Part shown: positions 3,480-35,999 of the stretch, in pieces
Numbering within the stretch: position 1 is the first letter of the stretch
How the letters are laid out: the number at the start of each line of letters is the position of its first letter
NCBI GenBank assembly: GCA_029582265.1
Contig: CM055817.1
Location: 55,475,711 to 55,539,710, forward strand
DNA length: 64,000 nt
Origin: Zoroaster sp. YZ-2022
Lineage: Eukaryota > Echinodermata > Asteroidea > Forcipulatida > Zoroasteridae
Direction of reading: 5' to 3'
Position numbers and translations under genes: made by a program
Notes under the pieces: generated by a model
Databases searched by the model: none
What the model was told of the DNA's origin: nothing
Seen by the model: the letters and a program-made list of their open reading frames with translations, nothing else

Positions 3480-5906
3480 AAGTAAGTCTAATAATTTAAG
3501 GTTTGAAAGAGCAGATTTTCTTGTGAAGTTTGCTACTAGTACAAAACAGTTGTTTAAGTTTGACATCATTAGATGAAACTATAAACATAGAGAAACGGTT
3601 CTTGATAAGATGTTTGTATTTGTTAATAACCTTACGAGCATAGAAACTATTATTACTGGTTTTGTTAAACTTAACAGTACAAAATAATAGGTTTAATGTT
3701 ACAATTAGACAAAAAAGGTTTGCGAGAAAAAGTATGATGATATTTAAGCTTAAATCTGTTGATAACAGACTTATGAAAACCGCATTTGAGGAGTCTATAA
3801 TAGAAAATAGTTTTAACATATGGTTATATTCGTGGATACAGGATGAGTGGGTTTTATAACGATGGCATTCACCTTTAATAATGCTAGAAAAATAATTGGG
3901 TTTGTGATTGGAAGTGAAATTAATATAACTGAATTTTTGGAATGGTTTCTGATAAATAAAGAATTTTAATTTATTATTTAAAAGAGTAAAATGATCTACA
4001 GAGAGCTGGAGGTCTAGAAAATTAATGGTTTTATTATTAATAGTAAAAGTGATTGGTATAGATTTAGGGTAAACAGAGGTGAGGGCATTAATGACATAAT
4101 TATGGCTAAAATTAATAGAGTTACGAGTGATTAAGAGACCATCATCAATATACCTGACAAAAATAAGTAAATTAGGGTTGTTGAAATTTTTGAAAAAAAG
4201 AAATTCTCTGTAAGCTGAAATTAAGTTAGCAATTTGTGCTGAGTGATAGCTACCCATTTGAACACCGATATTTTGTTTAAAAAGAAAATTACCTACAGAA
4301 AAATTGCTATATTTACAAGTGAAATTATAAAGTTTGAAAAAATAATTTAAAAATTCAAAAGGGTAATCACAGATTGAAGTAACCTTAAAAAGAGTATCAT
4401 GGATGTCACATGGAGTAATATTGGTGTAAAGACTTTCAAAATCAAAAGAAATGAGAAATGTCATCAAAATAATTAATATCTAAAGTCTTGATTTGGTCGA
4501 TAAGTTGATTAGAACTATTAATAATAGGCCAGGGAAAGTTAAATTCTGTAAATTTATCTTCAAACCTGCTTAAAAGAATATCTAAATAAAAACCAAGTGC
4601 TTTAGAAATAGGGGAGGTAATCCAACTATGAGCAGTAATAATGGGACGACCTTTTAAGTTTTGATTCGTTAGATGGACAAGGTGGAGAGTCTAATTTGTG
4701 AACTTTTGGGAGAATATCCATAGAAGGGACTTTAATTATTTTAGTTTTAAGGAAGGATGTTATTTCTTTGAAGTCTGAATCTGCTGCTTTAGGAAGATCG
4801 TTGTTTGTAAATAATGAGTTGATGTCTTGTTTGGCTGATATTATGAGCGTAGTGACGATGTTAGTGTTAAAACGACCTAAAGATGTGTATGTGCTGCAGT
4901 TAATTTGTCTCTTATATTCATTTATGTACCATGATGTGTTGCAAATGCATAAGCCCATATTTGTGTCGGAGATTCTAATAATGATGTCTTTATTACTGGA
5001 AAGATGTTGAATGTCTTTAATATCTTGTAATGTAATGTTATGAAGGCGATTGGGATTTAATTTTAAAACGTTATTATGTGGAATTTTCATTGATTCTTCT
5101 AGTGTGGCCTGGATGTAACTGAATGTGTTATTGTATATTTTGGGATGACAGAGAAGTGAGTTGAGATGTTTATTAGTATATTTCTTGTTAAGTCTGAAAT
5201 TAAAATGGTAATCTGTGGATGGTTTGTAGGTATGCGAGATGAGATATTTCTTTAGATGCTAGTTTTTTTTAGAGGAGGATTGATTTGTGTAGTGTAAGTT
5301 TAGCAGATTCAGAGTCTTCGGAAGGGTTAGTGGGGATGAAGGATGGACCTTTATTGATAATTGTGTTGGATACGTTTGGGATGTTAATTGAAGTAAAATT
5401 ATGAAAATTAGGTGAATTATTAGATTTCATTGATGATGATTTTATCGATGGCTTGATTTCTAAGGGACGAGTTTAGAAAAAAATACATTGTGAATTAATT
5501 TACGTTGGTTGATTAAGGCAATAGCTAAATGATAATTAAGGGATAATGAACGAAGGCGTGAATGACGATTGAGTGGTTTAGATGAATTAAAAATCAATTC
5601 AGAAACAAAATGTAATTCTAAGTTATTGGAGATATTATCAAGGTTGACTTTGGCATTATTAATTAATTTATTTAAATTGTCGATACCTAGACTGAGGTTA
5701 TTAGGGTGATGATTATAGTTTGGGGTGTTTTCTATGACATTGATAATTTGATTAAAATTAAGTTGAAGTTTATGGAGTTTAGGTATGAATTCATCTAAAA
5801 TTAAACAATATTTATTAGTAATATTAATATAATTTTGAAAAAAATTTAGATGATGAAGTAAAGTTTTTCCATTTATTGAAGTTATGACATTGTTTGATTT
5901 TATCAA
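3480..5906 (-). pseudogene. Reverse transcriptase, Penelope-like (frameshifted)
   Basis: The open piece 4467-3496 (323 codons) contains the RT core. A palm motif FDFESLYTNI lies near its start, where these RTs have FDVxSLYTNIP. GVQMGSYHSAQIANLIS follows as the motif B region. RYIDDGLLI is the catalytic YxDD box, and NFLDLQLS ... YQKPFQKFSYINF corresponds to the thumb-proximal 'YRKPT' region of Penelope-like RTs. The piece 5090-4626 carries the upstream fingers region, with 'NKDIIIR' and 'DILPKVHK', matching the family's 'NKxIVI...D' and 'LPKIHK'. The piece 5906-5460 is a helical N-terminal part. The pieces lie in order but in different frames, with stops between them. The gene is not intact, although the catalytic residues survive. 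Lys/Asn/Ile/Phe-rich composition reflects the AT-rich DNA. Confidence 0.75.
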
Positions 5907-6441
5907 AAATAATTTTTCTGGGGAGAGATGATGGCATAATGAAAGGATAACAATAAATGATATAAAATATGAAAATTAAATAAGTAATAAAAATAATTAA
6001 TAAGAAAATGAAGGCTAATAATTAATAAATTAAAATATTGATAATATAAAGGTTGAGTAACCAATAATATAATTACTAAAGAGTTTAGGGTTGTGGCAAT
6101 AACTTGAATAATCAAGTAGACAATCAAGTAGAGTAGATTATATATCAACTGGCGCTAGATGTAGGATGTATGAAGTGACAACGTAGAAAAACTAAGTTGA
6201 TTAATTGATCTGGGTGTATAATTAAAATCATAATTGGTGATGAACAAAAAGGAAAAAGGAAAATAAAGATGAAGAATATTTAGAAAAAAATAAAATAAAA
6301 ATTTGTTTTGTGGATTTATGTAAAAGTGTATTAATGTAAAATGAAATAAGACAGGAAAAAATAGAAAATTTTAAATGTTATTAACGAAAATAGTAAGGGT
6401 TAAGAGGATGTGAAAGCCGGCAATAAGAGTTCTTAAACAGC

Positions 6442-9841: not shown

Positions 9842-12539
9842 TTTAAGAGATTGCAGAGGTTTCACTGTGTGACGAAACTGTGAAATTTTTATAAGGGTAT
9901 ACACCCCCACAACTATACTCACCACTCGTTGCTGACTCTACAGTCTTCTGATTGATCTAAGCACCGCTGAGTTAAGATGAAGTTCCTTGTACGCTATTAA
10001 TGAAATAACTGCACTACTTCGGTGAGAATTGACTGCACTGACCCGGTACGTCGAGGACTGTACTTGAACTAAAATGGGCTTCCCTCGCGCGCAGACCTAC
10101 TTAAATAGTACACGCCTATAGTCTGGCTCTAGGCTGCTGCACTACTTGTCAACCAAGACTGGCGTCTAGGAACTAACTACTTTCGTGTTAGTAATGTCAT
10201 TATGTGCTGCATGATTCGTGGAATGCTGCAGAAAGCCCCTCCCCTCCCACTGGTATCCAATACCATTGGTACACAATCATTCATTCGAGTCACACGATCT
10301 TATGTTTATTTTTAACCAATAAGCTCATGTGCAAAATAATTATTCATTTACCTCGCTTCTTGTGGTCACGTGTTTGTCTTTGCTTTTCCTTTTATAGTAT
10401 TTGTTTTTCTAGAATGTTAAAATGTACAAAATAATTGCAGTTTTGAGGTAAATAGATGTTGTTTTAGGCAATATCATGTTAGCAAGTAACTTTGTAAACA
10501 TCTATACTAGACCGTTCTAATCATGGGCGTCGACGGGTGGGTCGGGGGATGTGATACCCTCCACTTTTTAGAGTGGGGGACAGAATATCAAATGTTCCCC
10601 CACACATACACACATGCACTTTTTGATAGGCCATGAATATTTTTTAATATGTTATAGCCTATTCTGACTACTGAGGTGTAGGCTACCGTTTTTCTTGTAA
10701 GACCACAAATATTCATATAGCCCAATCCAACATTTGGCCCCAAAGAATTGTGGGTTCTAGATCCGCCCTTGGTGGTATCGGAAAACACTTCAGTAAATAC
10801 TGTTGTTTATTGTAACCTCTTCAAAGCCTTCTTAGCGAAAACCAACATGAGACTGAAAACACAATCAATATTTCAACCTTGTATGGTGGGATTTTAAATC
10901 AAACATGTTTCAACAATGAGAGAAAATTATTATGCACATTCCTTTATGTCCCCCAAAAGTTTGTCTCTTCCACCACCGCCACCCCCAACACCCCCACCCC
11001 CACCTCCACCTGTGTGTTTTGAAACTTTTCTGGCGGAGGACCCCAAACTACAGACTCCCGCATTCGTCGCTCAAAGTGTCAGGCTTCACCGTCCACATAT
11101 TGTACAGCTGTGCCTCGACCACACCTCCATTTCAGACCATAATTAAGGTGGTCTTAACCTAATCAAGTCTAGGAGAACGATGTACCCAGTCAAGTCAAGG
11201 GGAACGACATGCCCCTGCTAGTCTTAAGCCAAATCAAATCTACATTACCCATGGGTTCCCTTCTAGTCTTAACCCATCAAATGGGGAGGGGTCGGGTGAT
11301 GGGTGATCATTCCAAAAGTTACTCTTTAACCACGAATCACATGATGTGAAGGTCTCGTATATAGGCCTACCAGGAAAGACCCATTTTCTAACCAGGATTT
11401 CCTTGTTTGGACTTGTTTGTACCAATGCTTCTGTAATGTAATACTGATATTTCCTCTTGACAATCTGTCACGTACACCACCGATGACCAGTATTCACCCT
11501 CACACAACAGCACTGTACATTTCCTGCTAGAGATCTACTATTCATAACTATACAGAATGGATCCATAGGTTTTGAAACTGTTGTATTTAATAATTCAGTT
11601 TTCAGTTTTTCCCAAAAAAGGAGGCAAACTAAGTACGGGTGGCAATTAGCACCACTTACAAACCTCCTTCATAACAGAACAGAGTTAAATTTGGTTGCTC
11701 CACAAATATAACATTGGTTTTTCATGATTAAAATGAATGTTTGTTGACGGGAGCGTTGTGGATGCCAAATGGAATTGAATTATATTTGAGAATCGTTACT
11801 TCCAATAAGGACAAAATGTTTGCAATTGCGTTGTGTGTTTCATTGTTAAAGCCTGTAAACTTTTGATAAAAAATAATGTGTATGTTCAGACAAGAGCATA
11901 AAAGATTGAGGGCGTGTGCATGAAGTCAGACGAGCGTGCAGTGCAACTTGTAAACGTCCTTTGTGTACAAATTACAAATTAGTTTTTTTCTGTAAATGTA
12001 TCTCATACCGTATTAAAAAAAAGGTTTACCAGATTTTACTGGAATTTATCAACTTTTTCCAAGTTATTTATCAGAATCAAGTATGTTAACATCAACTTAA
12101 TTAATACCTTATTGACGGTTTCAGGTACACTCTTAAAACAGATTTGTTAAAACATTCTATATGGTCCAACCAAGATCTTGGTCAAATTAACCAATCTAAA
12201 TTTGTTTAATACCTTTTTAACCAATATTTTTTGGTTAAAATTCTTACCAATATAGAGTTGGTCATTTTAACCAATATTATTGTTTGAAACATAACCAATT
12301 TACTTTGGTAGATCTTTCTGCATTTATACAACTGTTGTACCTTTGTATAACTGTAATATGCTTAATTGCATTAATGTCATTCACATGTAATGGCATCAAC
12401 GATTAAATATACACATACAATATATATATATACAAGCTTGTCCATTGACGTAATGTCACCCGTAGCTTGACTCCTGTATGCTTTATGACACACAGTATGA
12501 TACACATTACGTAAGTAGTATGTATGCAGCAAATCATTC
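9842..12539. other. Non-coding DNA with scattered low-complexity runs
   Basis: A C-rich patch at 10970-11010 produces a spurious proline-rich frame. The motif 'aaccaat' is repeated at 12185-12300 as a loose low-copy repeat. No gene is supported. Confidence 0.45.
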
Positions 12540-12835
12540 CCCCTTTGGGGAGGAGTAGAGGTGGTGGAGAGGTGGTGTATTTGTGCAGTTTGTAATGGCA
12601 GTCCACCACAGCCCACCACAGTGCAATGGACGAGTGGAGGAGTTGTGTGCAAACTCCTCATAAATTGCACCCTGGGGAGGAGGACTTTTTTAGGACGTCA
12701 ATTTTTCAATCCTCCTCCCCAGGGGTGCAATTTATGAGGAGTTTGCCTAACCTCCACTCGTCCGTGCACTGTAGTGAGCTGTGGTGACCGCTTACAAACT
12801 GCTAAATACACCTCTCCTCCCAAAAGAACATTGCT
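12540..12835. repeat. Large imperfect palindrome, arms of about 130 bp
   Basis: The segment from about 12510 to 12690 is repeated inverted from 12705 to about 12835, around a spacer of about 20 bp ('aggacgtcaatttttcaa'). Matching blocks include 'tcctcataaattgcaccc' against 'ggggtgcaatttatgagga' and 'ggacgagtggagg' against 'cctccactcgtcc', plus the 'cagtttgtaa' and 'tgcagcaa' blocks. The arms differ mainly by small indels. It would form a cruciform or long hairpin RNA; a foldback MITE is the likeliest identity. Confidence 0.85.
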
Positions 12836-13315
12836 GCAAGCCTGCAAAAAAATCAGTTTGTGTGGTGGAGAATACATAATACAATACATACATATACATA
12901 TATATATATATATATATATTCTCCTCAATACAAGATTCCCTGGGCGCGCGTGACTCCTCCACACCAAAACTGCACACAAGTTCCTTATGTTCCCTCGGCC
13001 AAGGGCGCGCGCGAATTAAAGGCGTATAAGACATTTGTGTGGTGGAGGGAGTAAAAGCGCAAGCATGCATAATTGATGATTTTTCCTTAAGGGAAGTAGA
13101 AAGGGAGGACAACAACGAAGACAGACAAAAGAACGACTGTACATGAAGCTATTCAAGTATGATTTGTTAAATTTAATTTTAACACAATCTTTGACATCAA
13201 TATATTAACAGATGGTTTTTATATGGGTTTTAAATTGGAAAACATTTGATAAACTGAAAACATTAAGTATTATTTATTATTGTTATTTTAAATGCTAACA
13301 AATTCGGGGCCTTTA
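12836..13315. other. Non-coding DNA with (TA)n microsatellite
   Basis: A (TA)n run lies at about 12898-12920. It is followed by a GC-rich patch with 'gcgcgcg' and flanked by further 'gtgtggtggag' motifs in both orientations, probably outlying parts of the palindrome family at 12540-12835. Confidence 0.5.
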
Positions 13316-14065
13316 GAACATTGAGTCTTTACTCATTTGAGTCTTTACTCATTGAGTCTTTACTCATTGAGACTTTACTCTTTGAGTCTTTACTCTTTGA
13401 GTCTTTACTCTTTGAGTCTTTACTCTTTGAGTATTTACTCTTTGAGTCTTTACTCTTTGAGTCTTTAGACTTTGAGTCTTACTGATTTCGCTTCTCATTT
13501 GCTCATTTCACTACTCATTTACTCATTTCGCTACTCATTTGCTCATTTCGCTGCTCATTTACTCATTTCGCTACTCATTTACCCATTTCGTTACTCATTT
13601 ACTCATTTCGCTGAGTCTTTACTCTTTGAGTCTTTACTCTTTGAGTCTTTACTCTTTGAGTCTTACTCATTTCGCTACTCATTTGCTCATTTCGCTGCTC
13701 ATTTACTCATTTCGCTACTCATTTACTGATTTCGCTACTCATTTGCTCATTTCGCTACTCATTTACTCATTTCGCTACTCATTTGCTCATTTCGCTGAGT
13801 CTTTACTCTTTGAGTCTTTACTCATTGAGCTTTGAGTCTTTACTCTTTGAGTCGAAATGAGCAAATGAGCAGCGAAATGAGCAAATGAGTAGCGAAATGA
13901 GTAAATGAGTAGCGAAATGAGCAAATGATGGCAAATGAGAGAATGAGCAAATGACATAGCGAAATGAGTAAATGAGCAGCGAAATGAGCAACAAAATGAG
14001 CAAATGAGTAAATGAGTAAATGAGTGAAATGAGCAGCGAAATGAGTAAATGAGCAGCGAAATGAG
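13316..14065 (+). repeat. Left inverted arm of foldback element
   Basis: Blocks in order: 15-bp family about 13320-13480; CTCATTT family about 13480-13612; 15-bp family 13612-13662; CTCATTT family 13662-13795; 15-bp family 13795-13853; then the CTCATTT family inverted (AAATGAG) 13853-14065. Each 15-bp unit contains the self-complementary GAGTCTTTACTC. All open frames through this stretch are by-products of the repeat. Confidence 0.9.
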
Positions 14066-14078
14066 TAGTTATAGGCCA

Positions 14079-14086
14079 TATATAAA
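14079..14086 (+). promoter_or_regulatory. TATA box
   Basis: TATATAAA lies just inside the left arm, 50 bp before the first ATG of the zinc-finger frame. It is a plausible core promoter for the enclosed gene; no other promoter element was identified. Confidence 0.5.
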
Positions 14087-14136
14087 CTATTTCTTCCGTT
14101 TCTTGTCAATCGGAGATTAAGCATCAGAGATTCAAC

Positions 14137-14935
14137 ATGGATGTTATTTCTGCTGTCAAACCTCATGCTTGTCACCAGTGCGGCAAAAGCTTTGGACGGA
14201 GATATAACCTACGGAGGCATGCAGAACATGTACATAATGAAGAAATCTAAAATGAATGAAGTTGACGATGATTCTGAAATTAAAGCTATCCAATCTGACA
14301 ATTCAGACATCGATAATTCTGAACCCGATTCTAAAAAGCGTAGATTTGAAGATTCGGAAATAGAAACTTGTGAAACTGAATCTACGCAGGATGAAGACGA
14401 AGATTTCGAGGAAGATGATTCAGAATCCGATACGGAGGTGAAATATGACGACTCATCGGAAGAGGATGATTCAGAATCCGATACGGAGGTGGAATATGAC
14501 GAATCATCGGAAGAGGATGAGTCTAGTTCTGAATTGGAAGACAATGCCACTTTTCGAGACTGGTTGGAAGAGGCTAAAGAAGCTACTGAAGAGATGTGCT
14601 GTGACAAATATGAAAAGTACGTCAACGGGGGTATGAGTGAAGATCAAGCCAAGGAAAAAGCCAATAGGAAAACCCTTTGGGCAGTCAAGCGAATCTTTTT
14701 CAACAAATACAAGGATTTTTTGTCAAGTTACCTACATCTGAAAGATAATGGGACTCATCAGGATATTGCGGAAGATCTCGAAGAAAAAGTAAATAAAGGC
14801 ATGGAAGTAAACAAAGCTCTGAACAGAGTAATGCCTAAACACCATACCAAATTTGACGGACTACTCCTTCAACTAAATGAGGATGAAGAGAACGAGGATG
14901 AAGAGAACGAGGATGAAGAGAACGAGGAAGAGTGA
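14137..14935 (+). CDS. C2H2 zinc-finger / acidic / helical-domain protein (one frameshift)
   Basis: The ATG at 14137 opens a 37-codon frame encoding one canonical C2H2 finger: CHQCGKSF, a YNLRRH helix, then HVH, with spacing C-x2-C-x12-H-x4-H. It ends at TAA near 14248. The overlapping frame from 14141 stays open to 14935 and, after the finger region, encodes a Ser/Asp/Glu-rich segment with a DSKKRR basic patch (possible nuclear signal). An internal direct repeat EEDDSESDTEV occurs there twice. A helical domain of about 100 residues follows (from about FRDWLEEAKE), with two Gly-Met turns (GGMSEDQAKEKA and KGMEVNKALN). The tail is a DEENE repeat. The two frames most simply form one protein split by a one-base indel near 14240. 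Finger-acidic-helical proteins of this kind are, from memory, multicopy and uncharacterised in invertebrate genomes. The role is unknown; DNA binding, perhaps of the arms, is inference. It is intronless and lies between a TATA box and AATAAA. Confidence 0.7.
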
Positions 14936-15013
14936 TAATGAAAGACCAGATGTTTCAGAAAGACTACTGTAATTTAAAAAAACAAAAACATCTATAATAG
15001 TGTTTTTGGTAGG

Positions 15014-15019
15014 AATAAA
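15014..15019 (+). terminator. Polyadenylation signal AATAAA
   Basis: AATAAA lies 79 bp after the end of the zinc-finger gene's open frame and just before the right arm begins, which would give a compact complete transcription unit inside the foldback element. Confidence 0.5.
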
Positions 15020-15044
15020 AAATCTATAAAATAGCCACCTCTGT

Positions 15045-16325
15045 TAATTTACTCATTTACTCATTTACTCATTTACTCATTTCGCTGCTCATTTATTATT
15101 TACTCATTTTCTCATTTCGCTGCTCATTTACTCATTTACTCATTTACTCATTTGCTGCTCATTTCGCTGCTCATTTACTCATTTCATACTCATTTGCTCA
15201 TTTGCTACTCATTTCGCTACTCATTTGCCATGTTTATCTCATTTCATGTTTCGCTACTCATTGCTCATTTCGCTGCTCATTTGCTCATTTCGACTCAAAG
15301 AGTAAAGACTCAAAGAGTAAAGACTCAAAGCTCAATGAGTAAAGACTCAAAGAGTAAAGACTCAGCGAAATGAGTAAATGAGAGCGAAATGGGTAAAATG
15401 AGTAGCGAAATGAGTAAATGAGCAGCGAAATGAGCAAATGAGTAGCGAAATGAGTAAATGAGTAGCGAAATGAGCAAATGAGTAGCGAGAATCAGTAAAT
15501 GAGTAGTGAAATGAGTAAATGAGCAGCGAAATGAGCAAATGAGTAGAAGAAATGAGTAAGACTCAAAGAGTAAGACTCAAAGAGTAAAGACTCAAAGAGT
15601 AAAGACTCAGCGAGAATGAGTAAATGAGTAACGAAATGGGTAAATGGTAGCGAAATGAGTAAATGAGCAGCGAAATGAGCAAATGAGAAGGAAATGAGTA
15701 AATGAGTAGTGAAATGAGCAAATGAGTGGCGAAATCAGTAAGACTCAAAGAGTAAAGACTCAAGAGTAAAGACTCAAAGAGTAAAGACTCAAAGAGTAAA
15801 GACTCAAAGAGTAAAGNNNNNNNNNNNNNNNNNNNNNNNNNNNNNNNNNNNNNNNNNNNNNNNNNNNNNNNNNNNNNNNNNNNNNNNNNNNNNNNNNNNN
15901 NNNNNNNNNNNNNNNNNNNNNNNNNNNNNNNNNNNNNNNNNNNNNNNNNNNNNNNNNNNNNNNNNNNNNNNNNNNNNNNNNNNNNNNNNNNNNNNNNNNN
16001 NNNNNNNNNNNNNNNNNNNNNNNNNNNNNNNNNNNNNNNNNNNNNNNNNNNNNNNNNNNNNNNNNNNNNNNNNNNNNNNNNNNNNNNNNNNNNNNNNNNN
16101 NNNNNNNNNNNNNNNNNNNNNNNNNNNNNNNNNNNNNNNNNNNNNNNNNNNNNNNNNNNNNNNNNNNNNNNNNNNNNNNNNNNNNNNNNNNNNNNNNNNN
16201 NNNNNNNNNNNNNNNNNNNNNNNNNNNNNNNNNNNNNNNNNNNNNNNNNNNNNNNNNNNNNNNNNNNNNNNNNNNNNNNNNNNNNNNNNNNNNNNNNNNN
16301 NNNNNNNNNNNNNNNNTGAGCGAAA
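15045..16325 (-). repeat. Right inverted arm of foldback element (contains a gap)
   Basis: The blocks mirror the left arm: CTCATTT family 15045-15293; 15-bp family inverted (AAAGAGTAAAGACTC) about 15293-15366; AAATGAG family 15367-15555; 15-bp family 15555-15610; AAATGAG family 15610-15738; 15-bp family 15738 to the gap at 15817. A few bases of the repeat may remain after the gap (16317-16320). Unit numbers differ from the left arm but block order does not. Confidence 0.88.
15817..16316. other. Assembly gap, 500 N
   Basis: Exactly 500 N inside a tandem-repeat block; a placeholder length rather than a measured one. The true arm could be much longer. Confidence 0.98.
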
Positions 16326-17376
16326 ATTTTTACATCATACTGACACAAAAAAAAGTCTTTACAATTTATGGTTAAAATTTATCCTGCATATAAAAACATT
16401 TTTTTGAGAAATATAAGTTGATCTTTAAATTCTAATTAAATATTTTCAAATTAATGGCCCTACCCTATATGTATCTGACCTTCAGGGGAATTTTTTTTAA
16501 AACCCCATACCCCTGGAGCAGAAAAGGTCTTTTGTACAGTTTTTTTTTTTTATTAAATGGTTTCCTTTTGGCCGGTTTTTCTTTCCCCATAATCCCCACC
16601 CAGACTTTTAAAAAACGAGGTAGGCCCCCTTTTTTGTTGGCCAAATAGCCAAGTTTTTCCGTCAAAACCCAGAATCGGGCTTTCCCAAATTGTTTTAAAA
16701 AAGGGGGCAGAGGCAATCCTACACCCTGTCACTTAAAGAAAACAAAACAAACTTCAGGGCATGTGGGGGCCCTTTTGATCTAGTTATTGATAGTTTTTTT
16801 GGCGGGGGGTTGGGGTTTAGATTTGGGTTTTGGGGTTCGGGATTTACCCAGGCTGTTGATTTATAGGAGAAGGGGGGCCTGTGAAACCCCATCTGTTTGA
16901 AAAATGTTGCCTCATTTTCTGTAAATTTTTTTTTAAAAAATATTGGGAAAACCCATTTCTATTTTTATAATTACCTTTTTTCGTAAAAATTGTCTCCCCC
17001 CACATATTATTATCCCCCCCTTTTCTGTTTCAAAAGTCCCGGGGAACCCGGTTTTATTTTGGGTCCCATCCACGCAGGGTTTTTTTGAAAATCTAGGTCT
17101 TTTTAGGGTTTTTTTTTAAAAATGTTATAACAATGATTGTACGGAGGTTTTTTTTACTGGACCAAAAAACTATAAGTGGAAAAATATTGTTGGGGGATTA
17201 AAAATGTATATTGTTGACTGTTTTTGGGGGAATTGGGCCATGTAAACCCCCCAACTTCATTTATAGGCATTTAGTCTTGGTATACATTTTGCAGATTACC
17301 CAATTAAAGTCATATGATTTTATGCAAGCATTGGATATTTCAAGATACCAAAACCCCATAACACAAGTAAAGAAAA
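16326..17376. other. Low-quality-looking non-coding DNA
   Basis: Unusually many runs of paired homopolymers (e.g. 'ggggaattttttttaaaacccc') from about 16440 to 17240. This texture looks like unpolished long-read consensus. The overlapping frames on both strands at 16454-16716 show no protein-like composition. No gene is called. Confidence 0.5.
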
Positions 17377-24060: not shown

Positions 24061-24238
24061 TTATATTAAAGGCCCCAATATTATGTTTACTCTTCCGGCG
24101 ATACCGCAGGCCTTTTGGGGAAAATGTTCCTCGAATACCATACTTCAACATGCAATTTAGAATTAAATATTTTAATTGTCGAAGGAACAGAAAAACGAAA
24201 AAACGGTTGAATTCTGTATGCTAATTATGTTAGCAGAT

Positions 24239-24670
24239 AGTAGGGTGAATGGGGGTTCGAGCCATACCCGAAAAAGGGGTGGGGTTCTGGCCTACCTACT
24301 CGAAAAACCCATTTTTTTAAACAATTCATGGGTAGTGGTAGGGTTATAAAAGTTGTAAAACCATTTTATAAAAGAAACCCATTTTTAAAACGGTTCAAGC
24401 TATTTACAAAAGGGGCTTACCAAAGGGCGTGTCTACTCATTGTATTAATGTGTACTGGTGCATACGGAATTTATGCGATTTGTGGGTCAAGGTCATATTA
24501 TTGTTGATGACGTCATCAACTTTTTGGGGCTACTCAAAATTCATTTTTGCAAAACCCACATTTTAGTGTGTCGATGATACTCACTTTGAAAATGTTTTGA
24601 GTAGTAAGTTAAATTTAAAAGCGACTTTTAAAAAGTGAAATTGATTTAACATTGTCTTGATTAATAACGA
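24239..24670 (+). repeat. Polinton left terminal inverted repeat
   Basis: Aligns in reverse complement with 40571-41002 over the whole length, from AGTAGGGT through 'gttgatgacgtcatcaactt' (itself palindromic around GACGTC) to 'gatttaacattg..ttgatt'. The arms differ by scattered substitutions and indels, roughly 15-20 percent by eye. Confidence 0.9.
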
Positions 24671-25580
24671 TTATGATGAACTATAGATCAAAGGCAAAGC
24701 TGAGCTAAAAGAGTTTGTATTACCAAAAAACAATATTAAAATTGGCAGTCATCGGTAAATATGGAAGAAAACTAATCAGGAGGATTATTTAATAGCAGTA
24801 ATAAAAACCACGAGCGTTAACGTTATACTACGACGGTAAACAACTCGTGCGAATGGCTTTTAAAGCGGATCATCGAAAAATGTGCTAAACCAAAGCACGG
24901 ATGCTGATGTATTTTGTTCAGCGCACGCCGTGCGTAGGTAGGAAAAAGAAAAGACGATTCGCTTGTAAAGATGCAAAATGGGTACGAAAGCAAAGCGGAA
25001 ATATGTACAAGTGCGCGTTTATTTGTAAGACTTTATCGCTAGTCGATCTATCATAGAAAAAATTGTAATTTTTGTGATGAGCGAGTTGAAAAAAACAACG
25101 ATACTTTTGTGAAATTATTGTATGGACGAACAAGTAAAATATGTTTACTCCAAGTCTCGTTGACGATTTAAAAATTGTGCGTACCATTCGCTCGATTTAG
25201 CATTGTTGGAACGTATATATTAAAACCGCCTCTACGCAACGTTGTATACTCGTGCGAAAAATTAGTACCGCGTATCCGTTGATTTGATAGAGATTTGCCA
25301 GTATAAAAAGAATATTTAAAACAACTTCGATTTAGATACCTATTTCATCGATCGTTATTTAACGAGTTGCATTTTATGAAAAAAGAGATGTAGAAGCTAT
25401 TTTTGTTGGAAACTAGAATCTTCACAAACGTCATTAAAATTTAAAACTACTAAACTTATTGTAATTGTATAGAGCGCTAGAATACCTCCGAAGAGGCTTT
25501 TGAACATTATACGATTTATTTGCGTACAGGTTTATTTTAAACTCAAAAGTTTCTATAAGAATTTTTTTTTCTGCATCATC
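24671..25580 (-). other. Polinton left segment, unresolved minus-strand frames
   Basis: Contains an 89-codon open piece at 25187-24918 and shorter ones. Direction is inferred from neighbouring minus-strand genes. No motif is recognised; possibly one short Polinton gene broken by indels. Confidence 0.35.
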
Positions 25581-25589
25581 GTTTTAACC

Positions 25590-26130
25590 GTTGAGCGCGT
25601 TGCATTTTCGACCGAGTCGTTGTTTTTCACCCAACGGCTCGCTCGCCACATTGGTTTTTCTTTCATTTTATAATATTTATCTTGCTCTTCGCGTGCAGTA
25701 CAAATTCTTCTTGAGTAATGACGCTATCTTCAATGGCTTTATAACATGGTTTCAGTCGTGTTGAGTTTATAAAGCTAATTTCTAATTTCGTCGTGTTTTA
25801 GCTTTTGAATGATTTATCTTTGGCGTATCTAAGAGCGAACGACGCGCCGCCCAATCTAAAGCTAAACCTTCTAAAACGAATCCTACGAGGCACCGCTTTA
25901 CAACGCTGGCGATACTCGCGATTCCAATAACTCCCGCTCATGCACTATTCAGCGAGAGTTTCTACGATACCACAAACGTTGATGATTTTATTATAATTTT
26001 TATAGACGGCTTCGCGTTGATACGTTTCGGCTCGCGGTGGTAGAATATCATCTATTTTTACCAATCGAAATGTTTAGCATCATCCGTCATTAACGGTAAA
26101 GTTGGATAAAGTACATTCGTTGATTCTATA
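25590..26130 (-). pseudogene. Polinton accessory protein with hydrophobic segment (frameshifted)
   Basis: Minus-strand pieces in different frames give a small-residue hydrophobic stretch (GVIGIASIASVVKRCLVGF, about 25860-25920). A helical acidic/basic part follows (EDSVITQEEFVLHAKS at about 25684-25731, then KYYKMKEKP and RWVKNNDSV). From memory, a hydrophobic Ala/Gly/Val segment followed by an 'I(S/T)xEEF..(V/L)' helix and 'KY..(M/L)K' is found in an uncharacterised Polinton protein. The function is unknown; membrane association is inferred from composition. Confidence 0.45.
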
Positions 26131-26479
26131 GGCACGCTCAATGTTTATTAATAGAAAGATGAAATGTTTTTAATTTAACGGCCAAGTACTAACTTTGATA
26201 TCGTAACATATTCCAGTATCAGAGAACCGAAGGTAGCATGTACAAAAACTTTTTGTAGTTTTTATTTTAAAGCAAATTCCGCATTCAATATGCTTTGCTT
26301 CGGTATCATTAAATAATCTTGCGATCTAGCGCCAACTCGAAAAAATCTGGTATACAGGTAGGTTATTTTCCTGGTTTCATAACGTTAGAATAAAAGGATT
26401 CTGTGCTGTAGTATTTTGAAAAAGTTGCAGTTTGTTACGGGTTCAAGATAGCAAATCTCAGTATACCAATGTTGGGTGA

Positions 26480-26660
26480 TCCGTCCCATTAATTAAAAAT
26501 GTATCTGGCAATTTTATATAATGTTATATTAAGTTGAATTTCATTAGTATCGATATATCCACTTTTTTCAAAAACGTTTTTTAATATAAATTTCACCGTC
26601 TCTATCTTTGTAACAATATCGCTAGAGGTACGACCAGGCCCGTAAATACTCGCCATATTT
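26480..26660 (-). pseudogene. Polinton protein starting MASIYGPGRTS, copy 1
   Basis: An open piece of up to 60 codons begins just upstream of MASIYGPGRTSSDIVTKIE (ATG at about 26655). Nearly the same start, MASIYGPSRTSDIVARL, recurs at about 27150, with matching DNA before it ('actcgccatatttat' on the plus strand). Beyond the N-terminus the copies diverge or are too broken to align by eye. No known family is recognised. A paralogous pair, or one gene with a duplicated leader, are both possible. Confidence 0.45.
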
Positions 26661-26689
26661 ATTATATACAATTATTAACTCGACGGTAA

Positions 26690-27160
26690 AGTTTTAATTT
26701 TAATACTGAAACAGATTTTAGAATTTAGCGCATGAAAAAGGTTGCCTCTGCAAACTTGTTGGTCTTCTTTTAAATACATTTTTCGTACTTGGATGCGTTT
26801 CATTATCTAGAAAATGAAATTTCTCATCTCGTTCTGGAGAAGGAATATAATAAACGTCGTTAGCGTAATCGCGTTGATGAATACGTTACTAAACCATTGG
26901 TTTCATAAATTGTACAAAATACTGCAGTACGTGGGGTGAAATGTTAAACTTAGAAAGGTTGTTTAAATGATCGTGCCAGCCAGGTATAACGTTGTATTTT
27001 TCGACTAGTACTATTCTTTGTAAAATTTCATCTCTGTTGCAGATATCCGTGATGTTCAATAAGTTTCGGTAATCGACGATCGTAAAATTTCAGCATAACC
27101 TAGCAACAATATCGCTCGTTCGACTAGGACCGTAAATACTCGCCATATTTATATAATTTC
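26690..27160 (-). pseudogene. Polinton protein starting MASIYGPSRTS, copy 2
   Basis: Minus-strand start at about 27148, then a broken frame including DEILQRIVLVEKYNVIPGWH and 'YFVQFMKP' (about 26920-27040). The N-terminus duplicates copy 1. Function unknown. Its position among capsid-era accessory genes makes a virion protein possible, but this is not supported by a motif. Confidence 0.4.
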
Positions 27161-27399
27161 TAGATTTACCGTCATTGAGAGCAATGATTATGTATGTCTA
27201 CCTTACTATCTTTGAGACGAAACTCAACTCGTTAAAAGTACCGACTCACCATTTTGTAAACGATGGTTTAACCATATACATACTTAATTAAAACGATACG
27301 TCTTGCAACGGAAAAGCGTTTTAAAATGGTACTCAGTTTACCGTTGAAATAATTCATAGTCAGAAAGTTGGTCGCAATGAATGTATAAAATTTTAAAGG

Positions 27400-28060
27400 A
27401 TTGTACGTCAATCTTTACACTATATTCCTCCACGGTTAGAAATTCGTTGTAGAAACCTAGTAAGTACCAACCAGCTGTAAATTTGGATTTATTTTTCTTG
27501 AGTGTGTTGTAAGAAAGCTGCCGCTGTTTATCGATAGTAAAATAATCGGGCGCGTTTCGCGGGTATAATATCGATAATTTCGTTAATGTTGTAAAGCCCC
27601 TTCGACTAGCCTGATGTCATCCTGCTCGCCGGTCGTGCGATAAGCTTATTCTTTCTTTTTACGCACGTTGTAATATCACCCAAATGTCTACGCTAATAAC
27701 GTATTATCGCGAGATTGCCTTCGGGGTATCGATAACGATCCTTTAATCGAATCGATCCACCATCTTTACAAATTTCAACGTTTCGAAGTATACATTTATT
27801 ATTATTAGTTATAATTCTAATATAATAAATGGCGTTCCATTAGCGTTCAAAGGTAATTTTACGTATTCTTACGAGCAATCTGGAAATTGTACAGCATAAA
27901 ATAAATTTTGCGCCTGGCAGTTTAACGAGTATAAATATTTACATCAACGAAACCGGGTCATTTAACGTTCATTTCGACAGTGTTTTTGGTAACTAAGCTA
28001 CCTCGCGTTGCAAGCGTGGCATCGTTGATGATTGGAATTAATCCGCTAAATGTTATCAAA
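27400..28060 (-). pseudogene. Putative Polinton structural (fibre-like) protein, fragment
   Basis: Minus-strand pieces include RLVEGLYNINEIIDIIPANA and LSYNTLKKNKSKFTAGW (about 27430-27620), with a beta-rich region upstream ('GFVDVNIYT', about 27930-27960). From memory, a short '(P/E)GxYNIxEI' motif near a beta-rich N-terminus occurs in an uncharacterised Polinton protein sometimes treated as fibre-like. The frame is broken several times. Treat the role as a suggestion only. Confidence 0.35.
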
Positions 28061-28069
28061 ATCAAATAA

Positions 28070-29190
28070 ATGTTGCTACGGCACTGCGCAGCGACGAGAT
28101 GCGGCGTGAGTTATCAACATTTAAATCATTTAAACCCGATGATTGTGGGTTTTTAGATTTCCGTATATTGCAAATTAGACGATTGCTCAAAGAAATGGGC
28201 CTACATCGTTTCAAAATTTTTATAACGCGTTTAGCAACAATATGGGCATCAGCGCGTATAAAAGACTGTGTAAAGACTTTCACCTCGATCAACTTTCAAA
28301 TTGGAAACAACAGTAGACGAGAACTCGTTGGGTTAGGGGCTATTATTATTACGATAACGGTTTACAAAAGCGGTGCGGAAACGACTACGATAATGGTTTG
28401 AACATTATTTCTACCGGTGGGCTGAGTTACGGTATTACGAGACTGCGACGAAAATGAGTTCGGAATCATCCCGCAACCTATACGGTCGCGCTACATTCTA
28501 ATCTTTTTCTACAGGCTCCTTGGACAAAATTTATAATCGGCGGATCTGGGGTTTTACGGATATATCGATTTGCCGGAACGCATAAATGACTCTATAAGAA
28601 CGTACGTTTACGTGTGGGGCTCAAGCGCGAGCAAAGCTCATTTGCAGCGGATGGTGCGGTTTGAACATGCCAGCGTGAATTTATAAATATAGTAAATGCG
28701 GAGATTGATTCTCGGTCGATTTAATCTGGTATTCAACGATATCAAGATGTTTTACAATACGCTCGCTCGCAATTAAACTTTGTATCGGTGAAAATTTATA
28801 CATGATGCCGAGCGATATGAATTTTACGAATGGGTGCGATTCGCGGGATACAACAATACCATTTTGATAGCGACAGGTTGCTCATTTGGGACAAATTTAG
28901 ATACAAATTCAACGCCCGTAACTCATCCCTATTTGCCTTTAAAAAAAGTCTCAACACAGGCACCTCTGACGAGGATCGTACGCGAGCGTACGTGCAGAAT
29001 CAACCAATGTTTATCCAACGCCTGCGCGACGAGCGATGACGGTGATTTAACTGGCAGCTAGTAAAGCCGAAACGATAGGAGCCTTTTAAGAAACCGCGCG
29101 ATAACCCGAAGAAGAAAAAAATTCTACAATTATTTGGTTTCGTTGTTTTAACCGGTCTCGACGTGCCAGTTTACCAGATCGCTACTGGCG
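28070..29190. other. Polinton segment with unassigned broken frames
   Basis: Open pieces exist on the plus strand (28099-28401, 28830-29061) and minus strand (28292-28062). A plus-strand piece near 28555-28680 reads FYGYIDLPERINDSIRTYVY and looks protein-like. By position and size this could be the minor capsid protein or the protease, neither of which I found elsewhere, but I see no motif to decide. Confidence 0.4.
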
Positions 29191-29194
29191 TTTT

Positions 29195-30205
29195 CTGCAT
29201 AAAAGTTAAAAAACTAGTACTCCAACAGCCGTTAAAGCTAGCCACAAGTGCTCCGATGCATACGCGATCATGCTAGAAGCCGTTTTAAATAACCAACCCA
29301 TAGTATATTTTCTGCGCTGGGTACAAAGCATTTCGCTTTCGCTCCTGGATTTAGCTAATAAATTTGGCAATTTTTTTAATGTTTCTCTATCCACCCTTAC
29401 ACCGTCGCTCGGTTCTGGCGTTGGTTTGTGGCGATGGCGCCTTGGGTGGTATAGGTTTTGCAGGTGAACTAAAGGTGTTGCCCTTAACTGAATTTGCAGT
29501 GTACCGATCGATTCGAGGATAAGCGATGATAAGCTAAACCGACTGGCCATTAATACAGTAGCGATCGTTGCACTTGTTCTCTAAATAAAGTTTTTATTCT
29601 TTCACCCAACGTGCGTTTCTTTTCCTTATTATAACCAATGCTTGTTTATTGTTTTTGTAAACCTCTATAATATCATATTTAGGTATATAGCTTCTTAATC
29701 TGTCACGAGATCTTCTTTTATTTTTCCTTCCCTTTCTTTGCAAGCGCATCCATCGCATCTTCGTCTCTATCTCATTATCATCGATTCTCTCGTTAATTTC
29801 GCAAATTTTCTTTGTTCTCTTTATAACTATAGTTGTAATTTTAATTTCGCCTCGTTTTGACGACAAAGTTTGCCGAGAGACCTATCAATGTTCTCCTTAT
29901 CGCGCTATCTTCTAGATCCGGGTCTGGTTGAAAGGACTTTAATTAAATTTTCGTTAGCTTCTATCCAGTTCACGGTCAGTAAAACGTCAGGTCGATCCGG
30001 TCTTGATGGTAGCCGGTGCTTTCCTTCTTCTTTGCGATGAGGGTGTTTTTATCGATAATTCGCGGCTCCAATGGGTATAGGTTGTTTTATCGCCTCGTCA
30101 CTATATCGATATAGTCGCTAAATGCTTGTTCTTCAACACCATCTTCGTTATCCTCGCTACCTAAATTTTCCAAAATTCATATTCTCCTTCCGCCATTTTA
30201 TAGTA
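29195..30205 (-). pseudogene. Polinton charged/membrane protein, copy 1
   Basis: The start is MAEGEYEF at about 30194, followed by an acidic stretch with NEDGVEE. A very basic helical region lies in the open piece 29866-29594 (KGRKNKRRSRDRLRSYIPKY, then NNKQALVIIRK). After a 'KTLFREQ' box at about 29570-29590, a C-terminal hydrophobic module follows: LKKLPNLLAKS ... GWLFKTASSMIAYASEHLWL with a terminal membrane helix (about 29200-29400). The order 'KTLFREQ', Pro/Gly linker, 'L.NLLAK', 'WLFKTAS', 'EHLW' is, from memory, conserved in an uncharacterised Polinton protein. It is interrupted by frameshifts. A paralogous copy lies directly upstream at 30255-31795. Confidence 0.6.
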
Positions 30206-30254
30206 CTTTTTTTTTTTTTAAGCATTGTATAACTCACGTAGCTGGTACGATAAA

Positions 30255-31795
30255 TTGTTATTTTAGGGTTTCTGCATAAAAGTTAAAACTAGTACTCAAC
30301 AGCCGTTAAAGCTAGCCAGCCACAAGTGCTCCGCCGCATACGCGATCACGCTTCAAAACCGTTTTAAATAACCAACTTATAATCGACCTATAATAGCTGA
30401 GTAAAGCGGCTAAAGCTTTCGCTCTAGTTTAGCTAATACGTTGGCTAAATTTTGTAATGTTTCTCGTATCACCGCTTACGCCGTCGCTCGGTTCTGGCGT
30501 TGGTTGTGGCTTTGGGCAGGTGGTATAGGTTTTAATTGGTTCTAAAGGATTGTTTGCTTTACTCGCGGCATTGATGTGGATTCAGCAGTAAAGCGACAGT
30601 CATACTAAAAGCCGTTAATATACTAACGATCGTTACGCCTTGTTCTCTAAATAAAGTTTTGTTTTTCCCCAACATCCAGTTGCTTTCTTTCATGTAACAA
30701 ACCAATTCACGGATTCTACCGAGTTGGTTACGAATTTGCCGAGTTGGTTACAATTTGCCCCGTATTTATTAACGATTCTAATATAATTTGTTTTCTTCTC
30801 GTTTTTCCCTTCGCAGTTGTTTGTAGATTTTTTCGGTTTCATCTTCATCTCTATCTCGAACGCTTAGGTATTCTTTTTCAAGATTATATATTTGTTGCTT
30901 ATCTTGGACAAATTACCTAAAGATAAATCCGCGATTACCTAGCTTTGTTTCAAAGCTTCATCGAAACCTATCAATTCTCTAAATGAAAATTAATTCCAAC
31001 CTCTTTCAAACGTTTATCTATATATCGCGATGCGTTTCTTCGATAGTTGTAATAGGAGAGCCTATTTTCTCATCAAAATCTCGCGTTTAAAACGCAACTC
31101 TTCCTCTTCTATTGTGAAAGAATTTCGCTAAAACTATCTTCCATAACTTGCACCTTGCGAAAACTGTTGCGCGTCAACGCTTTCGAATTGTTTTCTTCAA
31201 TAGAACGTATTGATTCTTGCACTTTTTAGTCTCAGGAAGCCGTCTTTTTTAGTAATATCCGCCGCCTCTTTAAATAATATTGTACCATCATATCCTTTAG
31301 CGTTCTTTCTTTCTATTATTCTAGTTTTGCCAACGTTGTTTTCGTGCGTTGATGCGTTAAAAGCACATCGTATTTAATAAAACCTTTATGAAGTACCTCG
31401 CCCGTCTATCATCTTTATCTTTAAAACCATTTCACTATTAAGTTTTTCGCTTCATCAACGCTAACGAAATGGAAACGTTTGCTATTTCTTATTATTTCAC
31501 CGGATTGATAGTCTTTATTAAAATACTCACGAAACTTTCTGGCCCGCAATTAATTTTAGCCTGGGTATATTTAAGTAGATTTCCTCTCTAATCTTTTTAA
31601 ATTTTCTTGTTCTAATCTTTTAAATTTTCTTCTTCTTTTAATCTTTCTTCTATTCTTTTCATTGCGCCAATGTCAAAAAAGTTGAAATTTTGCAGGAGTG
31701 GCGCACACGCATCTTCTTCAACACCATCTTCATAATCATCCGGTGGTGGCTCGCGGTTAAAATCTTCCGCCGTTATATCGCCTCCTTCCATACCA
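30255..31795 (-). pseudogene. Polinton charged/membrane protein, copy 2
   Basis: The start MEGGDITAEDFNREPPPDDY (ATG at about 31792) is followed by EDGVEEDACAPLL and a Lys/Glu-rich coiled-coil-like part (MKRIEERLKEEE). Much of 30700-31650 reads as charged, helical text in shifting frames. The C-terminal module repeats copy 1: 'KTLFREQGVTIVSILTAFSM' at about 30590-30660, then counterparts of the NLLAK and EHLW boxes down to about 30270. At DNA level 30255-30660 aligns with 29180-29600 ('gccgttaaagctagcca', 'cgtcgctcggttctggcgtt', 'ttctctaaataaagttttt'). Copy 2 is longer in its central charged part. Confidence 0.6.
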
Positions 31796-31849
31796 TTTTA
31801 TAATTACTTTTTATCTTTTCAGCGTTTATAACTCGCGTAACCTATACTC

Positions 31850-32240
31850 ATGCCTATTACGATAAATAAAATTTCTCGCGTTTTTTTTATCTTCGCTAGG
31901 TACAAAATCTTCGTCGCGGCTCGTTGTATAAATCTTCTGGTAAATTCACTCGTTCACTTGAAATATTTAATATTGAAATTCATGCACATCGTCGTGCTAT
32001 TAAACGTTCTTGACGCTCGATTATTTTTGTATTTTTCGTTTTAAATAGTCTAGATATTTTAAACCTTTTTACTAAATTCATCTCTAGCTTTCGAGAGTCG
32101 TTCTATCGCAAAATCAATGTCTTTTCGTTCTTGTTCGGCGTCGCTACCGAAAGAACTAAATAAAAAAGTACTACCGGTAAATGCTAACGCGTTAACTACC
32201 GCGCCTCAATCAACATCATACCTCGCCATGTATTTTTATA
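31850..32240 (-). pseudogene. Small conserved Polinton protein (NALAFTG motif)
   Basis: The minus-strand start MARYDVD at about 32229 is followed, after one in-frame stop, by AVVNALAFTGSTFLFSSFG, then ERKDIDFAIERLSKARDEF. A hydrophobic 'NALAFTGxxFLFS' segment followed by an amphipathic 'ERKxxDxAxExLxxAxxE' helix is, from memory, characteristic of a small uncharacterised Polinton protein that lies next to the capsid genes. The C-terminal part is scrambled by indels. It is divergent from the capsid gene, with the intergenic stretch 32230-32310 a likely two-way promoter region. Confidence 0.6.
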
Positions 32241-32309
32241 GTTGTAAATATAGTTTGTGTTTAAAAAGATAAAAGATTTTATATTTAGCGACTATAAAAT
32301 ATACTAATA

Positions 32310-33570
32310 ATACGTACGGAATGTGTTGGATCCATACAGAAGATTACGAGAACCTCACAGTGCTCAAGGACGTCAAAAAGTTGTCATTACAAACAATCCT
32401 AACACAATTACCGAAAATCAATTGTTGATTCGTTTTCCAAGTTGGGAGTAAACGACGTTATCGTTCCGAGTACGACTAAATTAGCTTTCAATATAGAACT
32501 CGTTAGCGATAATGATGAAAATCGAACGTTGGTACATAATATAGGTAGAGCGATCGTAAAACATATAATCATTAAAATGGAGAAATATAAATATTTTCGT
32601 TGGACGATGCGGATGTGTTCAATCGTTATAAAAGACGAATGGTTAACTAAAAAGATCAACGCGAACATTTATCGTATCAAAGGAATCGAAAAGAAGCGAA
32701 TGTGACGAGAGTAGAATAGACGCTGGCGACAAAACATCGCGAATAACGGAGAAAAGATAAAAGCTATCGCGGATACGTATAAAATAGATATTACATTCCG
32801 CTCGATTTTGGAGTATTGACCGATCATCAACCTTATTATCAGTCGGGGATCGGAGATCGATTAACTTACGAACTCGTGTTTAATAAATTCAGTAACGTGA
32901 TTAAAAGTACCGACGACAATGCGAAGTGCTATTATAAGCGGTTTCACTTTAGAATTTGAAGATAGTTCATATGCCACGGAACTCGCTCAGACGATAAAGA
33001 AATCAATATAGCAACCGGACGAGTATATTGTTTGATCGCGTACTAAGCGTAACCCCGCGCAACAAAAGCGAAACAACGTGGAATATAATTTAAATACTCC
33101 GGCAAAAAAGTATGAAAGATATTGTTTTATTCAAAACCTAATGAGCAAAAGTTTATAATCCAAAATCAACAAATTGAGTATTACGATCGAAGGCGTTCCT
33201 AATCAACTCTACGCGCACGGAATGCAAAGGTATCAACATTGCAGAAGAGAGATTTCAAAATATTTCGGAGATTCGAGCAAGCAACACATATACGAGTCGT
33301 TAGCCCTTAAATTTATCGAATGTAAAACAAGCCGATTATTTACTCCATCGATACGGTTTATTTTTAGATATGAGAACGGTACCGACAATAAAATGCACAC
33401 GGAAGCGGAGACGGAATACAAAGCAGCGCGAAGGTACACCATTCAAATTGAAAGAAGCGAGCCAGCCGCGGGTAGACAAACATGTATACTTTTATTATTA
33501 TGGACGCACCGCAACTCGTTATAAAAGAAACTCACGTTTTGAATCCGTCGTTAGTAATACTAATATTAAA
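32310..33570 (+). pseudogene. Polinton major capsid protein (double jelly roll), frameshifted
   Basis: The reading starts near 32325 (LDPYRRLREPHSAQG) and passes through several frames. Recognisable blocks in order: GVNDVIVPSTTKLAFNIELV and NIGRAIVKHIIIKM (32442-32580), an 'LTDHQPYYQS..GDRLTYEL' region (about 32815-32880), a 'VEYNLNTP' block near 33080, and LSITIEGVPNQLYAHGMQRY with HCRREISKYF (33170-33270). These blocks match the Polinton hexon-like major capsid protein, which forms the icosahedral shell and is homologous to adenovirus and PRD1 capsid proteins. Total span (about 420 codons) fits, though the family is often somewhat longer. Breaks are single-base indels rather than large losses. 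The C-terminus overlaps the start of the ATPase frame. Confidence 0.8.
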
Positions 33571-33960
33571 CAAGATGTTGCCTAATATCCACACGCGTTA
33601 ATTTGCGGCCAAACTGGATGCGGAAAAACTGAATTTGTTTAAACTTGTTGAAAACGAATATTTAAAACATTTCAGAAAATGATTATTATATTATGCCCCA
33701 CTATCGGTGACAACGACGCGTATCAAAATAGAAAATGGATTTGGAACGACTCGCAGTGATATTTGACGATTCAAAGATGTTTCGATAAACAAAGCGATAG
33801 AAATATATAGCGCGGTTTCAAAAGGTGGACGTTGTACATCATCTGACGATTGTAGCGCGAATAAACAGTTACATTAGTACGATGAAACAATAAATGTATA
33901 GTTATAGATTAACTTTGTGGAAGGCACGTTAAACATAACTGTTGGGTTTCTTTCTAAAAT
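33499..33960 (+). pseudogene. Polinton packaging ATPase (FtsK/HerA, A32-like), frameshifted
   Basis: An ATG at 33499, inside the capsid gene's end, opens a frame running to the region of the Walker A motif ICGQTGCGKTEF (about 33600-33636, after a one-base shift). A block IIILCPTIGDNDAYQNR follows (33677-33727). A Walker B-like 'LYII(.)DDCSA' is visible across another shift at about 33829-33860. This is the genome-packaging ATPase of Polintons, related to poxvirus A32, which would pump DNA into the capsid. The P-loop and acidic Walker B residues are preserved. The span is short (about 150 codons against 200-250 in the family), so the C-terminal part is truncated or unreadable. Confidence 0.8.
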
Positions 33961-34149
33961 ATAATAGCGATATTAAAGATTTTTAGAGCAACTCAAATGG
34001 GTGTGTTTATTTGTTGTAAGGTAGAATTCGTTCGAAATTGTCTTCGAAAACTACGTTGCAACGGCCGAGTTGCGAGCGAGCGCGGTAAACTAGTTTTACA
34101 TCGCAAATTGATTTTAAAGATCAACCTACCGGTTGTAATTATAGACTAG
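33961..34149 (+). other. Polinton intergenic or ATPase C-terminal remnant
   Basis: No readable frame. It may hold the missing end of the ATPase. Confidence 0.35.
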
Positions 34150-34680: not shown

Positions 34681-34759
34681 TGACATTGTCGCAGGTACTT
34701 TTTCCGTTTGATTTACTAATATAGGCAATTACTAAATGGAAGAGGTTCATAAACTAAAC

Positions 34760-35100: not shown

Positions 35101-35159
35101 TGGATTTGAAAGGTCATTCATTTTCTAGCATACTCAGTACCGTTGCGTGCGAAACCATA

Positions 35160-35995: not shown

Positions 35996-35999
35996 TATA

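Follow-up and report, generated by a model that had tools for sequence, protein, structure and literature searches.

Foldback elements of the TU type, known from the sea urchin Strongylocentrotus purpuratus, reportedly (in a paper of 1983) carry 15-bp tandem repeats in their arms and produce 8-bp target duplications, and we know of no gene within them. Galileo elements generate target duplications of 7 bp. The accessible parts of four reports describe the following: (i) the long repetitive arms of Galileo contain multiple binding sites for the DNA-binding domain encoded by the transposon (PMC3688188), (ii) Tetris elements have long arms with internal tandem repeats, 8-10-bp duplications, no apparent coding capacity and a source of mobility that is not known (PMC4079207), (iii) Mavericks/Polintons have the end motif (AGT)2//(ACT)2 or (AG)3//(CT)3 and 6-bp target duplications (PMC8097293), and (iv) IS3EU/GingerRoot elements have 6-bp duplications and tips that are mostly TA..TA and occasionally TG..CA (PMC10045372). 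In this study, a stretch of 64,000 nucleotides from the echinoderm Zoroaster sp. YZ-2022 (assembly GCA_029582265.1, contig CM055817.1, positions 55,475,711 to 55,539,710, forward strand; hereafter the window) was analysed with a focus on a foldback element enclosing a zinc-finger gene, and the whole assembly (1.0 Gb, 616 contigs) was searched for its relatives. The favoured explanation, to which we assign a probability of roughly 0.7, is that the window contains one broken copy of a non-autonomous foldback element that bears a gene, measures about 3.6-5.3 kb, has inverted arms of great length and is mobilised by a Maverick/Polinton-type integrase. What is new here is the combination of a foldback element, a conserved gene of its own and ends of the Maverick type; a literature search, with subscription papers and Repbase entries outside its reach, returned no paper on gene-bearing non-autonomous or satellite Mavericks/Polintons.

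The original prediction had proposed to search the genome with the interior of the element for copies with both arms and target duplications, and this search yielded 15 complete copies. At least 53 matches to the interior are present in the genome (40 of 692 candidates were scored, and the counts are lower bounds), and 38 loci were fetched for the analysis of copies. As judged by 9-mers of the window arms, 12 of the 38 loci have arm repeats next to the best interior match on both sides, and 30 have them on one side or both; the 8 loci without detected arm repeats are partly explained by incomplete interior matches and by repeats that differ. Alignment of the flanks revealed that the inverted repeat extends outward for hundreds of bases past position 13316 of the window. 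This position had been taken as the start of the element, wrongly, as copies elsewhere share 12514-13315 as an outer inverted repeat with the tip at 12514; neither the true ends nor the link to Mavericks had been foreseen.

A boundary search that was blind to motifs placed both limits of the inverted repeat at precisely AGTAGT in 8 of the 22 loci listed, and no more than a few bases away in some others. Tip pairs, defined as an exact AGTAGTA to the left and TACTACT to the right of the gene and more than 1.5 kb apart, were found in 20 of the 38 fetched loci, and in 15 of these 20 an identical 6-mer stands outside both tips. The match reaches 7 bp in none of the 15 loci, the 15 duplicated hexamers are all different, and a cross-locus control gave 0 hexamer matches in 210 comparisons. 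All 30 ends of the 15 complete copies have AGTAGTA tips (the first five letters by construction of the search). The foldback family is mobile, with copies at distinct sites flanked by exact 6-bp target duplications, and since both the tips and the insertion scars match those of the much larger, virus-like Mavericks, its members look like small hitch-hikers moved by Mavericks. The complete copies are 3.6-5.25 kb long, and their arms (1.2-2.7 kb) are 93-99% identical over aligned columns. One tip-bounded element (L013, C2:45696200-45703700) contains the gene twice, in opposite orientations and with about 0.5 kb between the copies.

The structure of the window copy, in window coordinates, is as follows:

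12508..12513, no strand: left flank hexamer TACGTA, the presumed left copy of the 6-bp target duplication (from the duplications in other copies; right copy unreadable)
12514..12520, plus: left element tip 5'-AGTAGTA (same tip in other copies)
12514..13315, plus: left inverted repeat, outer domain, composed of unique and minisatellite modules (matched by both flanks of other copies)
13316..14068, plus: inner left arm, six blocks (sequence, repeat and alignment analysis)
13321-13480, 13479-13611 and 13612-13657 (approximate), plus: first three blocks of the inner left arm, A, B and A, respectively
13658-13795, 13796-13853 and 13854-14067 (approximate), plus: last three blocks of the inner left arm, B, A and B-inverted, respectively
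14079..14086, plus: possible TATA box TATATAAA (sequence)
14137..14250, plus: C2H2 finger frame, 37 amino acids, MDVISAVKPHACHQCGKSFGRRYNLRRHAEHVHNEEI (stop reached via a frameshift in the window copy)
14252..14935, plus: frame of the acidic linker and helical domain, 227 amino acids (open reading frame, family searches and structure prediction)
15014..15019, plus: AATAAA (sequence)
15047..15816, minus: inner right arm, mirroring the left one and truncated by the gap (repeat and alignment analysis)
15817..16316, no strand: 500-N assembly gap, in or beyond which the outer domain and the tip of the right side are lost

Within 13316-15816 the arms are built of alternating tandem blocks of a 15-bp unit, TTGAGTCTTTACTCT, and a 20-bp unit, TTACTCATTTCGCTACTCAT, and enclose an interior of 0.98 kb. 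The original prediction of alternating blocks in mirrored order, with a terminal flip of the second family, was confirmed at about the positions it gave, and the proposed TATA box and AATAAA are both present in the sequence. The left inner arm and the reverse-complemented right one are identical in 630 of 641 aligned columns (pairwise alignment, which also holds 244 gapped columns, end gaps included). The two repeat families, predicted to be unrelated, have one feature in common: CTC/GAG cores such as ACTC[A/T]TT underlie both. Matches between the flanks of genomic copies and the outer domain of the window copy cover mainly 12849-13315, with shorter pieces for 12514-12848. The right inner arm ends in a gap of exactly 500 N, no TACTACT was found from the gap to position 40635 of the window, and the right tip of this copy is lost in or beyond the gap. 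Directly after the gap (16317-17300), many homopolymer runs and no match to the expected outer arm were observed, which suggests poor assembly.

The gene in the window is not complete, contrary to what had been predicted: the C2H2 frame (14137-14250) stops before the acidic/helical frame (14252-14935), and the two are out of frame with each other. The prediction of a foldback mobile element with its own gene is supported by the distinct sites and exact 6-bp duplications of the copies; the frameshift in the window copy had not been foreseen. Apart from this gene, no frame of at least 150 amino acids (frames crossing the gap excepted) was found in 12514-15816 of the window copy, and because there is no second long frame, no integrase, polymerase or capsid was seen in this copy.

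Relatives of the encoded protein form a large family. A search with the acidic/helical part gave 67 clusters of relatives and a profile search 99; together these make 108 proteins (P0003-P0110), including two ordinary multi-finger proteins, P0109 and P0110. Among the full-length relatives that were read, most consist of a single frame with a C2H2 finger followed by an acidic low-complexity linker and a conserved helical domain; other relatives are fragmentary, and a frameshift seems to be present in P0045 and P0066. They lie mostly on short contigs, the two named ones being those of the echinoderms Patiria miniata (P0093) and, more distant, Amphiura filiformis (P0107). In this family the finger is recognised by Pfam, and other Pfam matches are weak and scattered. 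The AlphaFold2 model of the helical part has a predicted local distance difference test (pLDDT) score above 90 over most of its length, and a structure comparison gave no significant match of this model to solved or viral folds. An uninterrupted frame of 249-266 amino acids is present in 12 of the 38 fetched loci. In six pooled pairwise comparisons between four subfamily representatives, which are not independent of each other, the ratio of non-synonymous to synonymous differences per site was 0.18 for the helical domain, 0.43 for the acidic linker and 2.4 for the finger, the value for the finger resting on only 1.5 synonymous differences. Whole-gene ratios range from about 0.2 to 0.8 between subfamilies and scatter from 0.4 to 2, with few changes, within them, the latter being as expected because the copies are recent. 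By these ratios, the helical domain is constrained between subfamilies.

The original prediction held that the protein could recognise the arm repeats. According to the textbook zinc-finger code, the residues R, N and R at positions -1, 3 and 6 of the recognition helix specify 5'-GAG, and these are the residues of the finger helix. The pattern could be read in 72 of 110 family sequences, with RNR the commonest (28), followed by RDR (19), RTR (10), RSR (5), KNR (5) and others (5). In the window arms, GAG/CTC is the top of the 32 strand-symmetric triplets relative to the flanks (5.7-fold, 159 sites), and when the whole arms of the 15 complete elements were analysed, it ranked first of 32 in 12 of them. 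Recognition of the arm repeats by the protein is compatible with the finger code and this enrichment; the code fits the inner arms, a single triplet in a repeat array being weak evidence.

The outer 500 bp at the two ends of the same element have a mean identity of 0.964 (lowest 0.870, 15 elements), as against 0.573 between different elements, for which the gene core has an identity of 0.983. In 97 of 99 element pairs with a core identity of at least 0.97, the outer identity is below 0.80. The arms therefore turn over fast between copies and stay matched within a copy, the simplest reading of which is that one arm is copied onto the other.

Longer elements with the same tips were searched for a possible helper. 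Genome-wide, the tip pattern gave 92 and 103 matches (0 and 0 for the reversed control), and 36 tip pairs were made by hand from part of these 195 matches. Their spans are 3-6 kb in 23 pairs, 6-9 kb in 4 and more than 9 kb in 9. In 11 of the 36 pairs one of the 40 scored gene copies lies between the tips, in the other 25 none of them does, and 18 of the 38 fetched loci gave no two exact tips, so that there may be arms or tips that lack the gene. Both tips were examined in ten long pairs (8.4-18.1 kb), and nine have an exact 6-bp duplication (two of the nine apparently represent one duplicated locus). Among the elements with such a duplication is one of 12.5 kb with a 409-amino-acid frame containing rve (4.5e-13) and Chromo (4.2e-09) domains, which matches solved integrases at up to 2.3e-10, including that of PFV (4.6e-9), and which we take to be of Maverick type. 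The adjoining frame contains FYVTLPSNSS and has no Pfam match; presumably it is a virion-type gene of Mavericks. Long elements with foldback tips thus exist and differ among themselves, at least one of them being Maverick-like.

B-type polymerases of the Maverick kind are represented by at least 60 matches in the genome (91 of 1074 candidates were scored). One polymerase lineage (L051-L054, L057 and L058) has the tips AGTAGTGTGGAG. Upstream of a second lineage, at L064 and L065, there is an open frame with two C2H2 fingers at its start, and zinc fingers thus recur in Maverick-related genes of this genome. These fingers resemble those of the 18.1-kb element with foldback tips (about 33% over 52 residues). 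In a piece of the latter (L068, C17:10866000-10871000), a weakly PHD-like frame was also noted, and its C2H2 fingers are duplicated.

In the favoured explanation, an integrase from the larger elements with the same tips would recognise the shared terminal sequence AGTAGTAT(A/G)T...GCATCTTGACC and, acting in trans, would insert the foldback element, with the 6-bp target duplication as the result. The protein of the element may bind the GAG/CTC sites repeated through the arms, its helical domain may oligomerise it and its acidic part may activate, so as to regulate or help replication or transposition of the element or of its helper. Copying from arm to arm could occur, e.g., via a panhandle intermediate in protein-primed replication. 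A bolder proposal, which we put forward only tentatively, is that the elements are satellites of animal Mavericks, using the Maverick integrase and perhaps also its protein-primed replication and packaging, with a private regulator whose finger would read the GAG sites of its own arms and with arms rewritten in concert at every round of replication.

Several observations weigh against mobilisation by Mavericks or against binding of the arms. Five of the 20 tip-paired loci have no exact duplication (2, 2, 5, 4 and 0 of 6 bases match), and the same is true of one of the ten long tip pairs. The part of the 12.5-kb integrase-bearing element that was read consists of a 2.5-kb piece and the tips. 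For the AGTAGTGTGGAG lineage, four pairs of ends were fetched and three had tips that could be read (one of these has a span of only about 6 kb); all three have 5 shared flank bases instead of 6, which speaks against this lineage as the helper and means that not every Maverick in the genome fits. With respect to the arms, a single zinc finger binds weakly, and between subfamilies no purifying selection is visible on the finger (pooled differences: 1.5 synonymous, 13.5 other). GAG/CTC ranks 2, 3 and 6 in the whole arms of the remaining three of the 15 elements; within the outermost 600 bp its ranks are 2-16, and it comes first in no element. As the elements are related, these ranks are not independent.

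Part of this evidence suits an independent transposon superfamily, in which another transposase (e.g. on the 8-18-kb elements) moves the small elements and the Maverick-like tips reflect convergence or the capture of a Maverick by the family. The 18.1-kb element has foldback tips and a 6-bp duplication, and a 5-kb piece of it, in which no integrase was seen, has weak matches to SWIM and YqaJ along with C2H2 fingers and a 125-bp remnant of the zinc-finger gene; the 5-bp flank matches of the AGTAGTGTGGAG lineage, another Maverick-like one, point in the same direction. We nevertheless consider such a superfamily rather unlikely, as one element with foldback tips and an exact 6-bp duplication does contain an rve and chromodomain integrase, and the combination of (AGT)2//(ACT)2 with 6 bp is the Maverick signature in the accessible text of the report (PMC8097293). 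That the gene is passenger cargo, i.e. a host-derived zinc-finger gene caught between the arms and without function for the element, could be argued from the frameshift in the window copy and from the 26 of 38 loci without an uninterrupted full frame. This is unlikely given that the C2H2-acidic-helical family comprises more than 100 clusters, many of them full length and down to about 35% identity, and that its helical domain is under strong constraint between subfamilies.

Other mobile elements fit less well. The long arms of tandem repeats, the 15-bp repeats and the echinoderm host (the latter two recalling the sea urchin TU elements, as far as these are reported) would suit a classical foldback element of FB/MULE, Galileo or TU type, which is made very improbable by duplications of 6 bp, as opposed to 8-10 bp in the accessible account of Tetris, 7 bp in Galileo and reportedly 8 bp in TU. 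IS3EU/GingerRoot was rejected on the basis of the tips, which are AG..CT and not the TA..TA or TG..CA of the consulted description, and Dada elements (small RNA gene targets, no terminal inverted repeats) were ruled out by the 15 different duplications and the long inverted repeats. An artefact of a satellite array with a chance gene insertion, suggested by the tandem repeats of the arms and by the end lying in an assembly gap, is refuted by 15 copies that sit at distinct sites and have tips and duplications, and we give it practically no weight. The pattern that the original prediction had named as a sign of such an insertion, i.e. the gene without arms and arms without the gene, was not observed, the 15 copies having the gene (whole or broken) and both arms.

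Other repeats were noted in the window. A degraded Maverick-like element occupies 24238-41005, with an inverted repeat at about 24238-24668 and 40573-41003 (456 columns, 78%) and the right tip AGTAGTAGGG; its frames at about 38.3-39.1 kb look by eye like a B-type polymerase, with no Pfam match there, and it contains a 21-bp tandem array (TAATTACTCATGGGTGGTTAG) at 34160-34679. On the minus strand of 3496-5975 there are long reverse-transcriptase-like frames, Penelope-like by eye. Interspersed arrays of CGACAACTCACGACAACT and CCAACTCGTACCTTCG, partly in both orientations, are found at 50250-57740 and perhaps belong to another repeat-armed element.

Some foldback elements (Tetris, in the accessible account) have no known source of mobility; here the tips, the scars and a matching integrase point to Mavericks. 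If this is true, whether Mavericks support parasites becomes testable, and the family offers a natural case of a DNA-binding protein evolving together with repeat arrays that it possibly reads. The identity of arms within elements, set against their divergence between elements, provides a handle on how very long inverted repeats stay matched.

Compared with described systems, as far as the accessible sources go, the family shares long arms with internal tandem repeats with Foldback/Tetris and MULE-type elements, and differs from Foldback/Tetris in its 6-bp (not 8-10-bp) duplications and its conserved gene. With Galileo it has long repetitive arms in common; Galileo has a P-superfamily transposase with a THAP domain, whereas the C2H2 protein encoded here is a separate one in which no catalytic domain is recognisable, and the duplications are of 6 bp instead of 7. 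Foldback architecture, 15-bp arm repeats and an echinoderm host are shared with what is reported of TU, from which the 6-bp (reportedly 8-bp in TU) duplication and the presence of a gene set the family apart. The likeness to IS3EU/GingerRoot lies in the 6-bp duplications. In contrast to Mavericks/Polintons, the element is 3.6-5.3 kb long, with one private gene and arms that make up most of its length and are largely minisatellites, and the set of integrase, protein-primed polymerase and virion genes was not seen in the window copy. With Mavericks/Polintons, as described in the text available to us, it shares the (AGT)2//(ACT)2 tips, terminal inverted repeats and exact 6-bp duplications, and a longer element with its tip pattern carries an rve and chromodomain integrase. 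Should the tentative satellite proposal apply, these elements would be the animal counterpart of phage satellites.

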